Origin: Planctomycetales bacterium
GTDB taxonomy: Bacteria > Planctomycetota > Phycisphaerae > SM23-33
Reading direction: 5' to 3'
Length of the DNA stretch: 37,428 nt
Assembly (NCBI GenBank): GCA_030612725.1
Contig: JAUWNJ010000031.1
Location: forward strand, 1-37,428
Made by a program: the position numbers and the translations under genes. Below the pieces are notes generated by a model. The model made no database searches, was not told the origin of the DNA, and worked only from the letters and a program-made list of their open reading frames with translations. Of this stretch, positions 17,024 through 25,877 are shown in pieces (within the stretch, counting starts at the first letter, position 1; each line of letters begins with the position of its first letter).

Positions 17024-17659
17024 TCAGTTCCTTGTTTTATTTCCCGCCAATGTTCCGACGATTAATCCTGCGGCGTGAGCGACGCCGACTGTTGCGATGC
17101 CGTCGGGCAGACCGATGCCGGGAATCAGGCCTGCGCCGGCCACCTCGAATGCGATTTTGACGGCCACCACAACGAGCAGACTTATACATGTAATTCGTGT
17201 CAGCCGGCCCGCTTCAACAACCAGTGTTACCAGGACCCACCCGAGCAGGGCGTAGTTCACACCTGACAGGCCTCGATAGATAGCGATGTCGCCAGCCCCG
17301 AAATCAACCGTCAGTCCGACCGCTGCGAACGAGGCTGCCAGCATAGCGAATAACCGATACGGGCGGCCTCGTCCCAGCCAGCACAGTGCCACGAATGCGG
17401 CCAAGTCCGCTGCCAGGTGAGACCAGGACCAGTGGGTCAGGTGGCAGGTCAGCACCCGCCAGACCTGCCCGTCCTGGACGGCATGACGGTCGAACTGAAG
17501 CATTGCCTGCGCCGCAGGGAAGAACTGCACCAGGACTATCGCCAGAACCACCGCGACGGGCAGGGCGTCGGCGGGGCTGAATACGCCCCGCCCCGCCCGC
17601 GTCGCCACGGCGGCCCCGGCGACTCGACCTCTTACGATGTTGACGGTTTCCGCCTGCAC
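17024..17659 (-). CDS. Rhombosortase-like rhomboid serine protease
   Basis: 211 aa with GTG start 17659, supported by AAGGA 7 bases upstream. It overlaps the end of the VIT-VWA gene by 28 bases. Rhomboid proteases cut within membrane helices with a Ser-His dyad. Here Ser is S132 in YRGLSGVNYALLG and His is H195 in GVAHAAGL; HLTHWSWSHLAADL (73-86) matches the membrane helix 2 region. Small size, the short core without extra domains and the YRGLSG motif fit rhombosortase (RrtA), which processes proteins with a GlyGly-CTERM tail, rather than GlpG. The overlapping upstream gene encodes a protein with such a tail and is the likely substrate. Rhomboid membership is strong; the rhombosortase subfamily is likely but would need an HMM search. 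Confidence 0.82.
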   Translation of the reverse strand: MQAETVNIVRGRVAGAAVATRAGRGVFSPADALPVAVVLAIVLVQFFPAAQAMLQFDRHAVQDGQVWRVLTCHLTHWSWSHLAADLAAFVALCWLGRGRPYRLFAMLAASFAAVGLTVDFGAGDIAIYRGLSGVNYALLGWVLVTLVVEAGRLTRITCISLLVVVAVKIAFEVAGAGLIPGIGLPDGIATVGVAHAAGLIVGTLAGNKTRN

Positions 17660-19836
17660 GTCTGTTCCTTTCTACGTCGAAGAACTGCCATTGCAGCCAA
17701 CACGCCGATGACCATCAGTGTAATCAGTCCGACCGGCCCGCCACCGCTGCTGGGAAAGCCCAGGGAGAAGCCGCCGCCGGAAGACGATCTACCGCCACAG
17801 GCCAATCCTGGGTTCTCGATGGTCGTTTCATAGCAGACACCATCGGGCATCGGTACTGCTACGGGCACCAATCTGGGCCGGCCTCCGAAGGCTGTCGGCG
17901 TCTCGTCAATTGCCACGAAGGAGGTGTACTTGCTCATCAGCGAATATTCCAACGCCAGTTCGGTAATCTCGTCAGCCATTGTCTGGTTGCTTCCGCTGCC
18001 GATCTTGTCCAGTTCCAGTTGCTTTATGCGCCGGCGAGCCCAGATGCTCGGAAGCGGAGAGGAATCCTCCGTTGGTCCGGGGAAAGTGAACGTTATCTTT
18101 GTCCCGCTGGGTTCTTTTCCGATTCGGCCAAGGATTTCGATGGTCGCCTCGCCTCCTTTGCGATACCGCCCATGCACGTACACCGGCATACCGGCGTACA
18201 GGTCGGGTACGCACGCAGGCAAACAGTCAAAGACCTCCACACCGGTGATCTTCACTTTTGCGTCGGTCAGCACCGGTTTTTCAATCCGTTTTGCAAAGCG
18301 ATTGATGACCTCCTCGGGTTTGTCCTTCAGCAGGATGACTTCGAAGAAACCCCGTCCAAGGAAGGCCATTCGGTCAAGCAGGTAGCGGTTGACACTTGAC
18401 CCGATGCCGAACGTAAAGAACCGCGCCGAACCGACGTTGCGTTTGATTTCCTCGAATATCGCCTCTTCGTCCCCGATGTAACCGTCGGTAAGGAAGACGA
18501 TCATCCTCATGTGGCTTTCGGGAATCTGTTTGCCCAAGGCCGCCCGGACGCCCTTGAGCATCTCCGTACCGCCAGCGGCTCGCAGGTTTTTGACATAATT
18601 GATACCGGCTCGAATGTTTTCATCGTCGGCGTCAACCGGGTCCGGTCGGAAGGATGAAACGTCGTTGCTGAATACATAGATGTTGAACCGGTCGGTAGGC
18701 TTCAGACCTTTGAGCAACTTGACGGCAGCCTTCTTAGCCAAGTCAATCGGCTTGCCGCTCATAGAACCTGATGTGTCCATCACACAGATAATCTCCCGCG
18801 GACGGATCTGGTCGTCGGCGGGCGCTTTGGGCGGATGGATGATCATCGTGAAGTATCCGCTCTTGTCGTTGGCGTGCGCCAGGATGCCGATTTCAGGCTG
18901 GTCGCCCGCGACGGCGATATTCAGAACGAAATCCTTGTTGGGAATCGCATCCTCGCGACCCAGCATGACGACGGCATCAGATTCACCATCGCGTTTAATC
19001 GTTACGGCGTGGGCGCGCGAAGTAATCTTTTGGATCGGCACACCGGCCTCGATATCTACCGATATGCTGATGTCAAAACCGCAGCGCCGCCCCGGCGGGA
19101 TGACCGGCGGGGTAATCCGCGAAGCGTCGGGGACGCGGTCGGTATCGGGCAGCCGCCCATTACCTCTCCGCATCGGGCGACCTCTTTCGTCTCGAAGCGG
19201 CTTACCCGGTATGTACCTCGGACCAACCACCATCGGAAAGACAACCTCGTACGCCCCGTCTTTGTAAGGAAGCGTCTGGACGTAGCGAATGACTACGTGG
19301 ATGGTTTCATTCGGGCCGATGTTGGCCACTGATTGTGTGAAGATGTTAGGTCTTTCCTGCTTCAGCAGACTGGCGCGTTTGCCCTGATCGCGGGCTTTTT
19401 CGTATTTCAGACGGGCCGACTCGCGCCGGTCAATCTTTCCGCGAATGACACGTTTGCCTATCCGCATCTCCGTAGCGTTAATGGCTGAATCGTGAGGCAG
19501 GGGAAAGACGTACTCTGCCTCAATCGGTCGGGACAGCGGATTGGAAAATTCCTGCGTAACCGTTACCTCGGCTACGAAGCCCCGTACTTTAATTTTCACG
19601 TCGGTATGCTTCAACGGCGCGACGGACGGAACCTCTTTTTTGAACAGCCGCTTTGGCGCTTGCAGGTCGGCGTTTTTAATCTCCAGACGACCCTGGCTCA
19701 CCGGCTTCCAGGTGGTTTTGGCCGACAGCGGCACGGATGTCGTCAGCAGCACTGTCGCTATCAGGGCGACCGCCCATACCGGACGAATCAGCCTCCGCCT
19801 TATCAATGCCTTGTTCGCTTGCTTCTTTCGGTTCAT
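17632..19836 (-). CDS. VIT and von Willebrand A domain surface protein with GlyGly-CTERM-like tail
   Basis: 734 aa from ATG 19836, which has AAAGGAG 8 bases upstream. A basic N-terminus and hydrophobic segment (PVWAVALIATVLLTTSVPLSA) form a signal peptide with cleavage after about residue 39. A VIT domain (about 45-165) shows VAEVTVTQEFSNPL, IEAEYVFPLPHDSAI and LLKQERPNIFTQSVANI. A VWA domain (about 345-520) has an intact MIDAS: DTSGSMSG near 352, GGTEM, and FLTDGYIGDE. The C-terminus is Gly/Ser-rich, then SSGGGPVGLITLMVIG, a hydrophobic helix, and RRRKEQ: the layout of GlyGly-CTERM sorting tails (Gly run, helix, Arg cluster). Likely exported, then cut and anchored or released by the rhomboid protease of the overlapping downstream gene. 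Ligand unknown; VIT-VWA proteins often mediate metal-dependent protein contacts. Confidence 0.9.
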   Translation of the reverse strand: MNRKKQANKALIRRRLIRPVWAVALIATVLLTTSVPLSAKTTWKPVSQGRLEIKNADLQAPKRLFKKEVPSVAPLKHTDVKIKVRGFVAEVTVTQEFSNPLSRPIEAEYVFPLPHDSAINATEMRIGKRVIRGKIDRRESARLKYEKARDQGKRASLLKQERPNIFTQSVANIGPNETIHVVIRYVQTLPYKDGAYEVVFPMVVGPRYIPGKPLRDERGRPMRRGNGRLPDTDRVPDASRITPPVIPPGRRCGFDISISVDIEAGVPIQKITSRAHAVTIKRDGESDAVVMLGREDAIPNKDFVLNIAVAGDQPEIGILAHANDKSGYFTMIIHPPKAPADDQIRPREIICVMDTSGSMSGKPIDLAKKAAVKLLKGLKPTDRFNIYVFSNDVSSFRPDPVDADDENIRAGINYVKNLRAAGGTEMLKGVRAALGKQIPESHMRMIVFLTDGYIGDEEAIFEEIKRNVGSARFFTFGIGSSVNRYLLDRMAFLGRGFFEVILLKDKPEEVINRFAKRIEKPVLTDAKVKITGVEVFDCLPACVPDLYAGMPVYVHGRYRKGGEATIEILGRIGKEPSGTKITFTFPGPTEDSSPLPSIWARRRIKQLELDKIGSGSNQTMADEITELALEYSLMSKYTSFVAIDETPTAFGGRPRLVPVAVPMPDGVCYETTIENPGLACGGRSSSGGGFSLGFPSSGGGPVGLITLMVIGVLAAMAVLRRRKEQTCRRKPSTS

Positions 19837-20029
19837 AAGTTGTGCTCCTTTTGAGTGCGCGCAGACCTTCCCTGTGCGCATCGCCTGTGGTTTTTCACGC
19901 GAGCTTCTTTGTGATTCCCGCCGCCCTACGCCGGGCGGTACTCTGCGTGTTTAACTACGCCGCTTTCCAGTGCCGGCACACATGGGTGCTTCACCGCGGC
20001 AGTTGTATCTAAAGCATCTGACATAATGG

Positions 20030-20097
20030 CCACAGAGACGCAAAGAATGAATAAAATCAAAAAATTCCTGCCTTATTTTTCTCATCTCTGCGTCCTC
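20030..20097. repeat. Inverted repeat with GACGCARAG arms
   Basis: GAGACGCAAAGAATGA (from 20035) and its imperfect inverse TCATCTCTGCGTC (ending 20097) flank an AT-rich centre. More related text (GCCGCAGGCGG, ACCGCAGAGCC) lies just beyond, inside the 3' end of the neighbouring gene. It looks like a dispersed intergenic element that has become the last codons of that gene. 19837-20029 shows no gene. Confidence 0.5.
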
Positions 20098-21452
20098 CCC
20101 TTGGGACGGCGAACAGCCGCCTGCGGCTCTGCGGTCCAATGTTTTGTTAAAAAGGCCTTTGGCGGAGTCGTTTTGCTGATTTTCAGTTTCTTATGGCGGT
20201 CAATGGTTGCCATTAACTTCCCATCCGGAGAGGGCGTACCGTTCAGTTGCCAGAAGTGGCTTCCCGTGCAATCGGCAGCGTATATTCTCCCGATTCCGTT
20301 TTTATCTTTGCCCACGGCACAGATGCAGCCGCCCAGGAGGTGGCGTTTGAAAAAAACGGATTCTGGGCCGAAACGTTGCGTAACCTTTTCTCCAATGTCC
20401 AGGACCTGCCACGGGTGCAGGGATATCAGGAGGTATCGGTGGTGGTAGTTAAATCCTGGCGGCGCCTCCAAGCCTTTCCATTCGGGACCTTCTCGTACCA
20501 AATACCAGAAGAAGAGGTATCCGCCTTCGTACGCCCAGGATACATCACCAATCCCTATGTCATTTCCAAACTGTGTGACGAATTGCTTTGTGAAATCCTC
20601 GACCCGACCTGTGGCTGAATCTACCAAGAGAAATTCGAGTTTTTGTTGCCCCATTTTTTCGCTGATACACATAACCGCCGAACCGTCCGGCTTCCAAGCG
20701 ATGCCTTCGGGATAGCAGTTTAACTGTCCGAAAGCCCGTACTGTTCCTGTGGCGACATCGAGAAATTTGAAAGGCCCTCCGTGGTATCGACTTTTAAAGA
20801 CGACGTATCGCCCACGCGGCGACCAGATTTCCAGCGGGTAACTATTAACCAGAAAGTCCACCCCGGGCTTGACGCTCATTTCCCGATGGATTGCCACGCG
20901 AGCATCCGGCGAATCAGAAATTTTCTGCCTCCAGAAGGTCCTGTCGGTAATGCCCTCGTGTTTTCCATGTAAGTTGGCGTGTGCGACGTATCCGATCTCG
21001 TTGTTACTGAGCCAAACGAAACTGCTTACGATTTCGTCGGGTCGGCTGAAACCCCGAAGTTTTCCCGAATATAAGTTGATAACCGACAGCTTCCACGGAA
21101 CGATGATTGCCAGATGCCGAGAATCCGGGGAGAACTCGAAGGGCGTTGGGACGGAGATGTATCCGGCCCATTCCATGCCCACCGATCCGACACGAACAGA
21201 TTTCAGGACATCGGGCGTGTCCACACCGCACCATTTAATGCTTATGGTCCGTGATAGTGTCCTGCCGTCCAACCACGGTTCATTCCACTCATCCAACCAT
21301 ATGTAGGCTACCTTTGAAGAGTTGGGCGAGAACTTGATTTCGCGCGGGCCGCTACTTGGAAGCACGCACCCATCGAGTGCCGCGGCCAGGCAGAGCAGCA
21401 GGCCCGTGACGGGTGTGAGCGAATGAAAATTCCTTATCTTCATCTTTGCCAT
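20082..21452 (-). CDS. Predicted lipoprotein with TolB/WD40-like beta-propeller repeats
   Basis: 456 aa from ATG 21452, with GGGAG 7 bases upstream. The signal peptide (GLLLCLAAALDGC) ends in a Cys that could be lipidated, though LDGC is not an ideal lipobox. Repeated motifs of the type FSPDSRHLAII, WSPRGRYVVFKS, WKPDGSAVMCI and PSPDGKLMATI are spaced about 50-90 residues apart. This is typical of TolB-like or WD40-like propellers that mediate protein contacts in the envelope. The last 15 residues (AEPQAAVRRPKGRTQR) are rich in Arg and fall in repeat-derived DNA, so the native C-terminus may have been replaced. The start is 22 bases after the stop of the LexA-HUH gene, so both probably share the promoter at 22147-22175. 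Confidence 0.75.
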   Translation of the reverse strand: MAKMKIRNFHSLTPVTGLLLCLAAALDGCVLPSSGPREIKFSPNSSKVAYIWLDEWNEPWLDGRTLSRTISIKWCGVDTPDVLKSVRVGSVGMEWAGYISVPTPFEFSPDSRHLAIIVPWKLSVINLYSGKLRGFSRPDEIVSSFVWLSNNEIGYVAHANLHGKHEGITDRTFWRQKISDSPDARVAIHREMSVKPGVDFLVNSYPLEIWSPRGRYVVFKSRYHGGPFKFLDVATGTVRAFGQLNCYPEGIAWKPDGSAVMCISEKMGQQKLEFLLVDSATGRVEDFTKQFVTQFGNDIGIGDVSWAYEGGYLFFWYLVREGPEWKGLEAPPGFNYHHRYLLISLHPWQVLDIGEKVTQRFGPESVFFKRHLLGGCICAVGKDKNGIGRIYAADCTGSHFWQLNGTPSPDGKLMATIDRHKKLKISKTTPPKAFLTKHWTAEPQAAVRRPKGRTQR

Positions 21453-21474: not shown

Positions 21475-22116
21475 CTATTTCGTTTCCTGTTCATCCAGCA
21501 TTTGCTTGATGAGTTCATCGAGGATCGCCAGGTCGGTCGTTACCACGTAGCCACGGTGCCAGAGTTCCTTGTTGGGAAAATGCTTCGCGTGGCGACGCCG
21601 GGTAAAGTTAGCCATTCGCTTGAATCGTCTAACAACCTGCTCCGGCGAATGGTTGGGCCAGACCTCAACGATTACCCGAACGTGGTCCGGGCGGATATCC
21701 TTCTCCAGCAGTTTCCATCCGTGCTCGATACATTCCTGCTCAATGGCCTCTTCAATGAGTTTTTTCGCCCGACCGGTCAGGATTTTCCTGCGCTGCGACG
21801 TCGCCCACGCCAGGCCATAGACCACCCAGCAGGCAACGCCCTCATCGGTGTGTGCGATATCGTGCAGTTTTCCGCGTAACCTGCTCAAGACTGACGGACT
21901 GTGGAGGATGCGAATCGAGCGGGCCTTGTCGGGGTCTTTGGTGATGTAGCCCTTCTTTTCCAGGGCTGCGAGGTGTCCACGGACGGCGTTGATATTGGCG
22001 ATACCGGCCGCTAGGCTGATCTCTCGCAGCGTCGGCGGGAAGCCGTGCCCGGCTGAATACTCCTCAATATGCCCCAATACCTTCTTCTGCTGATCTGTCA
22101 ACGGCTTGGTAGTCAT
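21475..22116 (-). CDS. LexA-type DNA-binding domain fused to inactivated IS200/TnpA-like HUH domain
   Basis: 213 aa from ATG 22116 (AAAGGA 7 bases upstream). Residues 1-72 match the winged-helix N-terminal domain of LexA: LTDQQKKVLGHIEEY, GFPPTLREISLAAGIANINAV, GHLAALEKKGYI and a KARSIRIL end. The S24 autopeptidase that normally follows is absent. Instead residues about 95-210 align by eye with Y1 transposases of the IS200/IS605 and REP-associated type: YGLAWATSQRRKILTG, IRPDHVRVIVEVWP, SPEQVVRRFKRMANFT, ELWHRGYVVTT. The HUH pair is H145-V-R147, so the second His is Arg. The position of the nucleophilic Tyr (VVKQYIENQ in ISHp608) reads LIKQMLDEQ with Met206. Both changes predict no strand cleavage. 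Probably a domesticated, dimeric, hairpin-binding regulator. It likely controls itself and the lipoprotein gene downstream through the palindrome in its promoter. The LexA half is very secure; the TnpA-like half is strong but made by eye. Confidence 0.85.
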   Translation of the reverse strand: MTTKPLTDQQKKVLGHIEEYSAGHGFPPTLREISLAAGIANINAVRGHLAALEKKGYITKDPDKARSIRILHSPSVLSRLRGKLHDIAHTDEGVACWVVYGLAWATSQRRKILTGRAKKLIEEAIEQECIEHGWKLLEKDIRPDHVRVIVEVWPNHSPEQVVRRFKRMANFTRRRHAKHFPNKELWHRGYVVTTDLAILDELIKQMLDEQETK

Positions 22117-22146
22117 AGTGTTTCCTTTATCACTGCTATTATGTAC

Positions 22147-22175
22147 AGTGTACATATGTACACTTATCGTGTCAA
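22147..22175 (-). promoter_or_regulatory. Promoter with overlapping 18-bp palindromic operator
   Basis: On the minus strand a perfect -35 TTGACA (22170-22175), a 17-base spacer and TACACT as -10 (22147-22152). The perfect palindrome AGTGTACATATGTACACT (22147-22164) covers the -10 box and half the spacer. A further TGTACA at 22142-22147 gives three TGTACA hexamers in 21 bases. The centre GTACATATGTAC differs from the Gram-positive SOS box GAACATATGTTC by one symmetrical change. A repressor here would block polymerase, so autorepression by the adjacent LexA-HUH protein is the simplest reading. TACATATGTA is also the BlaI/MecI/CopY-type core, but no such gene is in the window. Confidence 0.82.
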
Positions 22176-22337
22176 GTACTTTTTTACTTTAATTTTTTTG
22201 TGGTCGGGGAGCGGTGTCAGCGTTCGGTGAATTATTACATTGGTCAATTTAAAGTTTTAGATGAACCGGGAAGGGGGTTTTGCGTCTAATTATCATATTA
22301 CTGGATGCTTTTTTTCTCGTTCACAGGGAGATTGCTC

Positions 22338-25300
22338 ATGGCTGTTAGAGCGAACGAACACAGACGCAGAGCGAGTACTCTATGCTATCGTTGGGCTTGT
22401 TTATGGGGTTTTATTGTCGTGGCGGCGATGTTATTTCTGCCGGGTGAAACCGTAGGCTCAAATCCGGCTGCCGGAAACGCCAAATACATCTCGGCCTTGT
22501 TTGCCAAAACCGCCAGGCGGGAGGGCGCTTCGTATATTGTGGCAAAGAACGTCCTGGTCCTTCGTGGTAAGACCATCGTTCCGTTTCTCAAGACCAAAGT
22601 CCGCTCTACCAATTGGCGTGAGCGGAACCTGGCCGAGGTTCTGCTGCTCCGCATAGAGCAACCGGAGAAGGTTACAAATTGGCTGCGGATATTCCACGGG
22701 GGGCATAACCCAATGACCTTTCGTAAGGACGGCACGGTAGAAGTGACGTTCAAGACACGCGAGACGGTTGTCGCGGACCGCTCGGTCGTGCCACTGCTGC
22801 TGGACGTGATGCGAGAGAGCATCGGTTTTGCCTCCAGTGGCCAAGGCAGAGAGGAGCACGTCTTTGGAGTATCTCTTCAGTTTCTGCGCCATTTCGCCGA
22901 TCCGCACTCGGCCGAGGCGCTGGTGAACGCTGCGGGAAGGGTTTGGAAACAGGACCCGGTAATCGTCGAGACGCTGGTCAAGATAGGCAAGCCGGCGCTG
23001 CCCGCGCTTCGCAAGGCGGCAAGGAAAGGTGACGGCAACCGGTATGATGTGAGGCCGGCGGTTTTGGCTGTGGAAGTCCTGGGGAAACTCGGTGACGCCG
23101 AATCGGCCCCGATGCTGATCGAGACGCTCGACAAACTCAAATCTCCCGACACGGTCGCAGCCTATTGCCAAACGTTGGCGAAATTCGGGACGCGAAAATG
23201 CGCCGATGCCGTCTTCGCCCAACTGCTCAATTGCGCAAAAGGCTGGCCTGGGCGGAAAAATTATCGTGACTCGAAGAATTACTTCGCCATCCGTGAGGCG
23301 ATGCTGTCCTTCGGCGATGCGGCAAAGCCTCTGCTGAAAAATGTCGTAAAGACGGGCAACGATAAAATCGCGATCGCCATCGCCCAGGGCATGTTATGGG
23401 AATTGACCAACCCAAAGAAGGCAAAAGCGTCCTACGCCGCCTTCGGCAGGGAATTGCCTCCCCATCGGCTGACATGGTGGACATCCGGTAGTAAAGACAA
23501 AGAGATCGACTTCGCCGATGTCGGACGGAAGGAGTTCTGGTATCGCCACTCTCGCTATGCAGATTGGAAGCCGATGGTGTCCGACTTCCCAGCCGAATTG
23601 CTGATTGAACGGGCAGCGGCGATGACGGGAGTTTCGAACCTTGTCGCCTTGGGGCGTCTGAAGGACAACGCTTTGGCATTCGATATCCTGTCTGCGGCGC
23701 TCCTGAAGCATAATAATCCCTACATAATCGACCGGCGAGTCATTCTCGCGCTGGCAGAGATAGGCAATCCCAAAGCCGTTGATGTGTACGGCAGGATACT
23801 TCCAAAGCAGCGGACACACTATGTCGGCATGACCATTGAAGCGTTGCTGCTACTGGATGAGCCAGCCGGAGCGAAGGTGCTCCGAGAGATTATCGGTCGA
23901 GAGATCGAGGAGCACAATGCGAAACACTACAAAGAGAACGTCGTTCCACTGGCAGAAGCCGTCCTGTCTGCACTGGAGGGCAAGCCGGAACCGGTCGTCA
24001 AACTGCTGGAATCGAAGCAGCAATCGCTTCGACTGGCGGCAGCGAGGTATCTTGCCCGCAAAGGCGACGTGCGGGCAGTGCCCGTGCTGCTGACCGAGGC
24101 AATGACCACCAGCCACATAGCGATTCGCGAGCATATTGTGGCGATGGGCAAGGTCGCGCTGGAGCCGCTTGGAAAAATTCAGGCCGACACCAAAGACGAC
24201 AAGGAAAAACTGCTGTGCGAAGCGGTCCGGCTTCGGATTACGAATCCCAAACTTGTCAAGAAATTTGAACGGGCTGGACAAGTTCCCTGTCCGGGTTTTC
24301 AAAGTCACGTCGGGCCGAGCGTTGACGACTACCGCTTCGTCGGTAAGCACATCGCCAAGGCCATCGGCCCAGAGGCGGTTCCGCTGCTGGAAGCGGCGAT
24401 TGTCTGGAAAACCGGAGCCGGATCAGCGGCATTTGCCTTGGCTGAATTCAAGCAGCCGCGATCCATCGACTTGCTCGTCAAATACTGCGGAAACGTCGGA
24501 TGGGCGCGAGGCGGGTCGATAGCGGCCCATGCGCTGAAGGAATTCGGCGAAGCGGGCATCGCCGCCGCCAAGAAAGTTCCCGTAGCCAACCCGAACAAGG
24601 CCCGCTTCGACCGGCGCGTCAGACGACACCGCACCGCCGCAAGCGTGCTGGCGCTGGCCGATGACCCAAAGGGCATTGAGGAGATTATCAAAGGTCTGAA
24701 ACTCGCAGCCGACGACAAGATTAAACCCTACCAGACCAACGTCTATATGCGTCTGGCGGGAAAATATACAGATAAACGCCTCATAGAACCGGTCATCCAG
24801 GCCTTGGAAAAACAGATTCACAAAGACAACAGAGGCAACATGGCCGATTTGGCCTTGAGATCACTCTGCCGCTATAACGACGAACGCATCGTCCCTGTCT
24901 GCCTGAAGCACCTGGCCCACAAGTCATCAACGGGTCGCCATGCCCTGTTCGGCCTGGCGCGTGTCAAGGGAAACGGCCTGGCGGCGTTCCTCGTCGAGCA
25001 GGCTGAAAAATCGAAAGATGAGAATGTCCGCATCGGGGTTTCCTGGGCAATGGCTGAATTACTGTCGGATCGTAGTAACTTTTTCCCAAAGAATAAGGAT
25101 GAGGATGCGCCCAAACTGTCAAAGGACGCTCTCGCCAAAGAGAAAACACTGCTTTATCAGACGCTTATGCGGATGTTGGACGACCCCGGCGAGTCCGTCC
25201 AGCTGGCGGCTGCGGACGATTTGTCCGATGTCTCATATCGTCGCAGCAACAAGACCGGCAAGGCGGCGCTGATCGCCTGGGGCCACCGGCAGGAATGGTT

Positions 25301-25877
25301 GTCGTTTAAGGTGATCAGGTATCTCGCACGGACCAAAGACCCAAATGTCGGTCCGTTACTGCTCAAGATATTCAGGAAGAATCCCTCCAAGGGTTACGTT
25401 CCAGCCAAGGCGTTGTCGGACCTCAAGTACGAAAAGGCCGTCCCTGACGTCGCCGCCGGGGTCCGCCGGCAGATCGAAGCCGGTAAGATCAGATGGGACA
25501 TTCCGCTGATGGACATTCTCGGCGGGTTCGGCGAGAGCGGGTGTAAGGAAGTGTACGACATCATGCAGACGCATAAGGAACTGGGCGTGCAGGTGGCCGC
25601 TGCCGGCGCTCTGTCCCGGCGTTCATACGAGAAGGGTTTCGCCGAGATGCGGAAACTATTCGAGGAACTTATCGCCGCCGGCCCGGATGATGCGCGCATC
25701 AAGAAATGGCCCGACCGAACCAGGTTGGAGACGCACCGAGGAGTAATCATCAGTTTGTCCAGGTCGCTGTGGACATGGGACGCGAAAAAAGCCTATCCGA
25801 TAATCCTCAATGCCAGCCTCGAAACAACAGATGAGCATCTCATCAATCATCTTTCCCGGATAGCGCTGAAGATGTAA
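22338..25877 (+). CDS. Large exported HEAT-repeat protein
   Basis: 1179 aa from ATG 22338, which has GGGAG 8 bases upstream; an earlier TTG in frame is unlikely. A basic N-terminus and hydrophobic helix (WGFIVVAAMLFLPGE, about 23-38) act as signal or anchor. The rest is almost entirely helical repeats of HEAT/PBS-lyase type: LVKIGKPALPALRKAARKG, LAVEVLGKLGDAESAPMLIE, LALAEIGNPKAVDVYGRIL, LAAARYLARKGDVRAVPVLL, ALAEFKQPRSIDLLVKY and others, with Ala/Leu/Pro/Val at the usual spacing of about 30-40 residues. Such solenoids serve as binding scaffolds; no enzymatic motif is visible. It is divergent from the LexA-HUH gene with about 220 bases between starts, and could be affected by the same operator, though that is 160 bases away. 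No terminator is obvious. Confidence 0.88.
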   Translation: MAVRANEHRRRASTLCYRWACLWGFIVVAAMLFLPGETVGSNPAAGNAKYISALFAKTARREGASYIVAKNVLVLRGKTIVPFLKTKVRSTNWRERNLAEVLLLRIEQPEKVTNWLRIFHGGHNPMTFRKDGTVEVTFKTRETVVADRSVVPLLLDVMRESIGFASSGQGREEHVFGVSLQFLRHFADPHSAEALVNAAGRVWKQDPVIVETLVKIGKPALPALRKAARKGDGNRYDVRPAVLAVEVLGKLGDAESAPMLIETLDKLKSPDTVAAYCQTLAKFGTRKCADAVFAQLLNCAKGWPGRKNYRDSKNYFAIREAMLSFGDAAKPLLKNVVKTGNDKIAIAIAQGMLWELTNPKKAKASYAAFGRELPPHRLTWWTSGSKDKEIDFADVGRKEFWYRHSRYADWKPMVSDFPAELLIERAAAMTGVSNLVALGRLKDNALAFDILSAALLKHNNPYIIDRRVILALAEIGNPKAVDVYGRILPKQRTHYVGMTIEALLLLDEPAGAKVLREIIGREIEEHNAKHYKENVVPLAEAVLSALEGKPEPVVKLLESKQQSLRLAAARYLARKGDVRAVPVLLTEAMTTSHIAIREHIVAMGKVALEPLGKIQADTKDDKEKLLCEAVRLRITNPKLVKKFERAGQVPCPGFQSHVGPSVDDYRFVGKHIAKAIGPEAVPLLEAAIVWKTGAGSAAFALAEFKQPRSIDLLVKYCGNVGWARGGSIAAHALKEFGEAGIAAAKKVPVANPNKARFDRRVRRHRTAASVLALADDPKGIEEIIKGLKLAADDKIKPYQTNVYMRLAGKYTDKRLIEPVIQALEKQIHKDNRGNMADLALRSLCRYNDERIVPVCLKHLAHKSSTGRHALFGLARVKGNGLAAFLVEQAEKSKDENVRIGVSWAMAELLSDRSNFFPKNKDEDAPKLSKDALAKEKTLLYQTLMRMLDDPGESVQLAAADDLSDVSYRRSNKTGKAALIAWGHRQEWLSFKVIRYLARTKDPNVGPLLLKIFRKNPSKGYVPAKALSDLKYEKAVPDVAAGVRRQIEAGKIRWDIPLMDILGGFGESGCKEVYDIMQTHKELGVQVAAAGALSRRSYEKGFAEMRKLFEELIAAGPDDARIKKWPDRTRLETHRGVIISLSRSLWTWDAKKAYPIILNASLETTDEHLINHLSRIALKM

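Follow-up and report, generated by a model that had tools for sequence, protein, structure and literature searches.

A planctomycete protein pairing a LexA-type winged helix with a degenerate TnpA domain is a probable autorepressor of its own operon

The fusion gene and its two domains

The window analysed here, a 37,428-nucleotide stretch of DNA from a planctomycete genome, carries on its minus strand a gene whose product joins a LexA-type DNA-binding domain to a domain of the Y1/IS200 transposase (TnpA) type. The gene and the parts of it discussed below are as follows.

21475..22116 (stop codon included), minus strand: LexA-TnpA fusion gene, 213 aa, recognised from the ORF, Pfam/NCBIfam matches, homologues and dN/dS
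21901..22116, minus strand: LexA-type winged-helix DNA-binding domain, residues 1-72 (PF01726; fold match to 3jso)
21478..21855, minus strand: Y1/IS200 TnpA-like domain, residues 88-213, apparently catalytically dead (PF01797, NF033573, fold match to 2fyx)
21676..21684, minus strand: degenerate HUH motif, codons 145-147, His-Val-Arg (H145-V-R147), from alignment with canonical TnpA
21499..21501, minus strand: position of the nucleophilic Tyr, codon 206, occupied by Met (M206), from alignment with canonical TnpA

The reading frame starts with the ATG at 22116, which is preceded by AAAGGA at 22123-22128, and ends with the stop codon at 21475-21477. An alternative ATG at 22155 falls within a putative operator and lacks a convincing ribosome-binding sequence. 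Profile searches assigned residues 4-66 to Pfam LexA_DNA_bind (PF01726; 66.6 bits, cut-off 23.7) and residues 100-194 to Pfam Y1_Tnp (PF01797; 56.5 bits, cut-off 23), and the second half also scored above the cut-off of the NCBIfam IS200/IS605 transposase model (NF033573; 66.4 bits, cut-off 55). The LexA equivalog TIGR00498 remained below its cut-off and matched positions 2-71 of 203 only, and the Pfam/NCBIfam searches returned no match in the fusion protein to the S24 peptidase domain of LexA. Among solved proteins compared by sequence, LexA matched the first half at 37-45% identity and IS200 transposases matched the second.

An AlphaFold2 monomer model (mean pLDDT 89.9, pTM 0.60), built from an alignment of fusions together with separate LexA and TnpA sequences and supporting the domains rather than their mutual arrangement, was compared with known structures. 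Residues 4-71 matched the LexA-DNA complex 3jso (Z 12.5, rmsd 1.3) and residues 88-213 matched TnpA 2fyx (Z 17.4, rmsd 2.4, 126 aligned). Comparison of the second half with IS200/IS605 TnpA structures (ISHp608, ISDra2, DR_0177 2fyx) gave Z scores of 15-17 over the whole fold, which is intact, and the PDH, P, LW and Y positions of these enzymes are conserved in the fusion.

The open reading frame is not a product of chance, since a protein of the same architecture in a different genus of the family (L065) is 83% identical with dN 0.10 and dS 0.73, and further homologues were found at 35-55% identity. The combination of a LexA winged helix and a Y1/IS200 TnpA domain at 21475-22116 is real. An earlier note, made from the letters of the window, had described a LexA N-terminal domain followed by a Y1-like segment and no S24 peptidase. 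The profile matches bear out this description, including the assignment of the C-terminal half to Y1_Tnp, and the AlphaFold comparison that the note proposed, run on the monomer, matched one half to LexA and the other to TnpA.

Loss of the transposase active site and distribution of the family

The active site of ISHp608 TnpA consists of H64, H66, D61, Q131 and Y127, and the IS608 enzyme is a dimer whose active site is assembled in trans (PMC5934647). The second His of the HUH motif is gone in all 12 intact fusions (replaced by R,R,V,V,V,V,A,I,S,V,V,L) and the nucleophilic Tyr is gone in 11 of the 12 (residues M,M,L,L,F,F,L,L,L,F,Y,F), while both are present in each of six canonical TnpA proteins compared. 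One member, L070 (9619-10356), retains a Tyr at the nucleophile position and has lost the second His; it may represent a stage on the way to inactivity.

Conversely, the fusions share four invariant positions (W134, H156, S157 and T194) that are not invariant in canonical TnpA, indicating that the TnpA domain is under a constraint of its own. Between the window protein and L065, dN was 0.097 and dS 0.73 overall, with values of 0.118 and 0.90 for the TnpA half, which indicates purifying selection on both halves. These results support the conclusion that the TnpA half is a domesticated, probably catalytically dead domain attached to a LexA-type DNA-binding domain, as the earlier note had proposed; profiles, fold and residue loss all agree with it. 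The note had also read the HUH motif as HVR and the nucleophile as Met, correctly in both cases, and had asked whether these features persist in homologues. None of the 12 members has an intact HUH and loss of the Tyr is nearly general, but the HxR form is not, with Arg at the second-His position in only two.

The 12 intact members occur in 12 genomes, belonging to Planctomycetota and one deltaproteobacterial MAG, and there is one truncated copy in addition; the gene therefore extends beyond this assembly, and restriction to it was one of the outcomes that the note had named as refuting its reading. Besides L065, full-length members were found in three further genomes of the window's family (L068, L069, L067), in other families within the class (L061, L062, L063, L064) and in a different class of the phylum (L070 at 42% identity and L071 at 35%). 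Named records carrying the fusion include the Phycisphaerae MAGs SM23_33 and Arabian11. Its occurrence is sparse and scattered: 5 of 38 genomes in the order and 9 of 397 in the class sample carry the gene, with 2 more in the phylum sample. The deltaproteobacterial member (L034, 6001-6660; 44% identity) is the only one outside the planctomycetes and occurs in 1 of 291 genomes of its order, so that it was either horizontally acquired or lies on a misbinned contig. In a tree with 19 ordinary TnpA proteins the fusion TnpA domains formed a single clade (support 100/99).

Each genome carries one fusion copy, save G018, which has an additional truncated one. This second copy (L066, 8099-8530) ends after residue 144, and its promoter retains four good dyads.

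No relatives of the fusion were found in IMG/VR viral contigs, and no full-length relative was found across viral contigs, phage or plasmid collections. Two phage/plasmid tblastn matches that apparently covered both halves (H1, H21) proved to be annotated single-domain TnpA genes, and a third (H22) overlies a short LexA-like ORF. Three further matches from the contig scan (L035-L037) cover LexA only, and the proteins concerned are of the LexA type and have no TnpA domain.

It is hardly credible that the gene is a mobile-element transposase with a captured LexA domain as its regulator, or a decaying copy of such an element. Although the protein scores above the NCBIfam transposase cut-off, the catalytic losses in every member, the single copy per genome outside G018 and the purifying selection all oppose this reading, as do the conserved promoter operators and operon position described below and the lack of full-length relatives in the viral, phage and plasmid collections. 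Residues, copy number and context likewise lead us to reject an active transposase or IS element.

Promoter, operators and downstream genes

The region upstream of the fusion gene contains a promoter and two candidate operators.

22147..22175, minus strand: sigma-70-type promoter, TTGACA (22175-22170) - 17 - TACACT (22152-22147); TTGACA precedes the dyad in most homologous promoters
22148..22163, minus strand: putative operator 1, GTGTACATATGTACAC, a 16-bp perfect dyad by sequence, with SOS-box geometry, overlapping the -10 element
22133..22148, minus strand: putative operator 2, CTGTACATAATAGCAG, matching E. coli CTGT-N8-ACAG at 7/8 positions and lying 15 bp from operator 1

Operator 1 is the palindrome that the earlier note had cited at 22147. 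Sites scoring at least 9/10 against [CG]TGTA-N6-TACA[CG] numbered 15 in 13 upstream windows of 110 bp each, as against 3 in the rest of the 194 kb. In 2000 first-order Markov resamples of these windows the mean was 0.22 and the maximum 3. Because the dyad model was derived from the same upstream sequences, the independent E. coli model was also tried. LexA binds CTGT-N8-ACAG as a dimer (PMC8565304). The mean best match to this sequence was 7.6 sd above resampled sequence (z = 7.6), a test in which one of two control dyads reached 3.4. The same half-sites at other spacings gave 0.4 (N6), 0.8 (N7) and -1.4 (N9), with a weak signal of 3.0 at N10, and the Gram-positive SOS box GAAC-N4-GTTC was rejected as an operator model with a z of 2.7 compared with 7.6. 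Complete 8/8 matches to CTGT-N8-ACAG occur as CTGTATATAAATACAG in L064 and CTGTACATGCGTACAG in L061.

Paired dyads lie exactly 15 bp apart at six loci (window, L065, L064, L069, L034, L066) and show a spacing of 26 bp in L070 and L071, and the promoters of L067 and L068 have degenerate dyads only. The second site is rotated by 154 degrees at a spacing of 15 bp and by 171 degrees at 26 bp, which is nearly the same phase and suggests that two dimers would sit on opposite faces of the helix.

The source genome has a single perfect GTRTAC-N4-GTAYAC dyad, the one at 22148. GTGTA-N6-TACAC occurs twice, and the second site (C43:187708) falls within an ORF and is probably a chance match. When 12 genomes were scanned for the tandem 15-bp pattern with one mismatch allowed, it was found in four, once in each and always at the fusion's own promoter. 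Similarly, both occurrences of the exact GTGTAATTAATTACAC in the 9 Mb of G519 are within the fusion promoter. These scans indicate a regulator that is mostly local.

One genome, G454, has a second perfect GTGTAATTAAATACAC at C133:65119 (L098 1501-1516), within a TGGACA-17-TAATAT arrangement and with no obvious same-strand gene downstream. This site could be a second target or the promoter of a small RNA, and strict locality may fail in some genomes.

The genes that follow the fusion in the window are listed below.

20082..21452, minus strand: first downstream gene, 456-aa putative lipoprotein, 22 nt past the fusion stop
17632..19881, minus strand: VIT-vWA surface protein (TIGR03788-like, GlyGly-CTERM-like tail), probable operon member, from profile matches
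17024..17659, minus strand: rhombosortase (TIGR03902, 95.0 bits, cut-off 84), probable partner of the VIT-vWA protein

The 456-aa protein has no Pfam/NCBIfam match, and its sequence and spacing mark it as a putative lipoprotein and operon member. The VIT-vWA protein scored 538 against TIGR03788, below the cut-off of 551.65, and such a gene lies behind the fusion in the window, L065, L061 and L066. In all 12 intact members a gene follows the fusion on the same strand, and the fusion is first in the operon.

Elsewhere the downstream genes differ. A long run in L069 (3479-14951) encodes two FabZ-like proteins, two KAS, an ACP, an SDR reductase, a nitroreductase, a hexapeptide transferase and several radical SAM proteins, two of them Tes/TrsS-like, and a FabZ-like gene also adjoins the fusion in L068, L067 and L063. 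The operons of L070 and L071 encode phosphatidylserine decarboxylase (Psd) and a PssA-like transferase, and that of L034 a Tes/TrsS-like radical SAM protein, SDRs and an aminotransferase; the scores of the radical SAM proteins fall far short of the equivalog cut-offs for both TrsS and Tes. A DUF2339 membrane protein is encoded in the L064 operon, and an unassigned 2006-aa ORF lies downstream in L062. In our reading of these few operons, the common theme appears to be the cell envelope and its lipids; no DNA-repair genes are among the operon genes identified.

A 1190-aa HEAT-repeat protein is encoded at 22305-25877 and is divergently transcribed from the same intergenic region as the fusion. 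This gene might also be under the fusion operator.

The LexA-type DNA-binding domain and the SOS-box-spaced operators would be compatible with an SOS-like DNA-damage switch that dispenses with RecA-driven cleavage, which the earlier note had put forward. We consider such a switch very unlikely. The source genome has a canonical S24-containing LexA as a separate gene (G000:C58), upstream of which the dyad-model scan detected no fusion-type operator, the four genomes in which the tandem operator was found have it at the fusion promoter and nowhere else, and the operons carry envelope and lipid genes.

The variety of the downstream genes, which fall into five operon types, and the presence of the fusion in so few genomes of the class raise the question of whether it is a selfish or neutral autoregulator, with the following genes as bystanders whose control would serve no physiological purpose. 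This is improbable, although less so than a damage switch, as operon types recur across families (FabZ-KAS in f1 and f12; VIT-vWA in f1 and f13) and the 4-bp start/stop overlap between the fusion and the next gene in five members (L068, L063, L067, L034, L071) points to co-expression.

A model for operon-specific autorepression

We propose that the fusion acts as an autorepressor specific to its own operon and that its dead TnpA domain has taken over the dimerising role of the S24 domain, a reading to which we assign a probability of about 0.78. The LexA-type winged helix would occupy the neighbouring pair of SOS-box-like dyads that overlies its own promoter and block RNA polymerase, thereby repressing its own gene and the envelope and lipid genes transcribed behind it. 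The TnpA domain would pair the DNA-binding domains in place of the S24 peptidase and would no longer cut DNA. The computed support for this proposal is the domain architecture, the catalytic loss, the single clade, the purifying selection, the LexA-spaced promoter operators, the restriction of the tandem operator to this promoter in the genomes where it was found, and the operon-first position. From these data we infer that the protein represses rather than activates, that its TnpA domain mediates dimerisation and that two dimers bind cooperatively. Dimerisation is proposed because the TnpA proteins that have been studied are dimers and the LexA DNA-binding domain needs a dimeriser. The position of the operator over the -10 element fits repression, and activation from a neighbouring promoter may be possible.

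Beyond pairing the DNA-binding domains, the dead HUH/Y1 domain could tentatively be regarded as a sensing as well as dimerising half, in which nucleic acid (single strands or hairpins) or a small metabolite in the former active-site cleft controls operator binding and so switches the envelope and lipid operons. The intact fold is consistent with this, and the invariance of W134, H156, S157 and T194 suggests a conserved role beyond bare dimerisation. Repressors of lipid operons usually sense an intermediate, which also favours a ligand. However, the conserved residues may instead serve folding or the dimer interface, and the dyad operator already accounts for the hairpin-type palindromes here. 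We therefore hold sensing to be a possibility rather than an expectation.

The proposed autorepressor resembles LexA (PF01726 + PF00717 S24) in its winged helix and in the CTGT-N8-ACAG geometry, with exact spacing. It differs in lacking the S24 peptidase, and with it RecA-stimulated self-cleavage, and in its predicted control of its own operon rather than an SOS regulon. In addition, R46-G47 in its recognition helix correspond to E44-E45 of E. coli LexA. Unlike the IS200/IS605 transposases whose fold it shares, the fusion has lost the second His and the Tyr, carries a LexA domain, is apparently not mobile and heads host operons.

The TnpA_REP/RAYT proteins are likewise domesticated TnpA domains kept by the host, and some subclasses (2.1.2) have an HTH-like extension. 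According to TnpA_Y1 classification work, they keep the HuH/Y core and the HTH, where present, is C-terminal (PMC6006769). In contrast, the HTH of the fusion is an N-terminal LexA domain and its catalytic residues are gone; the fold match is also weaker (4er8, Z 9.6), and the operator dyads are confined to the promoter in the scanned genomes apart from the second G454 site.

The natural dimeriser of the LexA DNA-binding domain is the C-terminal S24 domain (PMC8565304). Bacterial two-hybrid strains use LexA DNA-binding domains that lack this dimeriser, and these repress a LexA operator once they are joined to interacting partners (PMC3575510). Those fusions were engineered, whereas the planctomycete fusion is natural.

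One-component repressors are already known, and it is the pairing of LexA with a dead HUH transposase domain that appears to be new. No N-terminal LexA fusion is described in the parts of the TnpA_Y1 classification work considered here (PMC6006769), and a TnpA-LexA fusion is likewise absent from corresponding parts of a review of mobile-element exaptation that lists co-opted transcription factors (PMC8987985). A search of literature comprising few subscription papers and no preprints found no paper with both Pfam accessions or domain names together.

The fusion is a clear example of how a transposase domain can become the non-DNA-binding half of a host regulator, and it places a LexA DNA-binding domain outside the SOS system with its operator geometry retained. 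Such genes risk annotation as 'transposase' or 'LexA' and hence being overlooked. The results supply a candidate regulator and operators for poorly understood planctomycete operons, including those for FabZ/KAS with Tes/TrsS-like radical SAM proteins, for Psd/PssA and for rhombosortase surface proteins, and thereby make the control of these operons directly testable.
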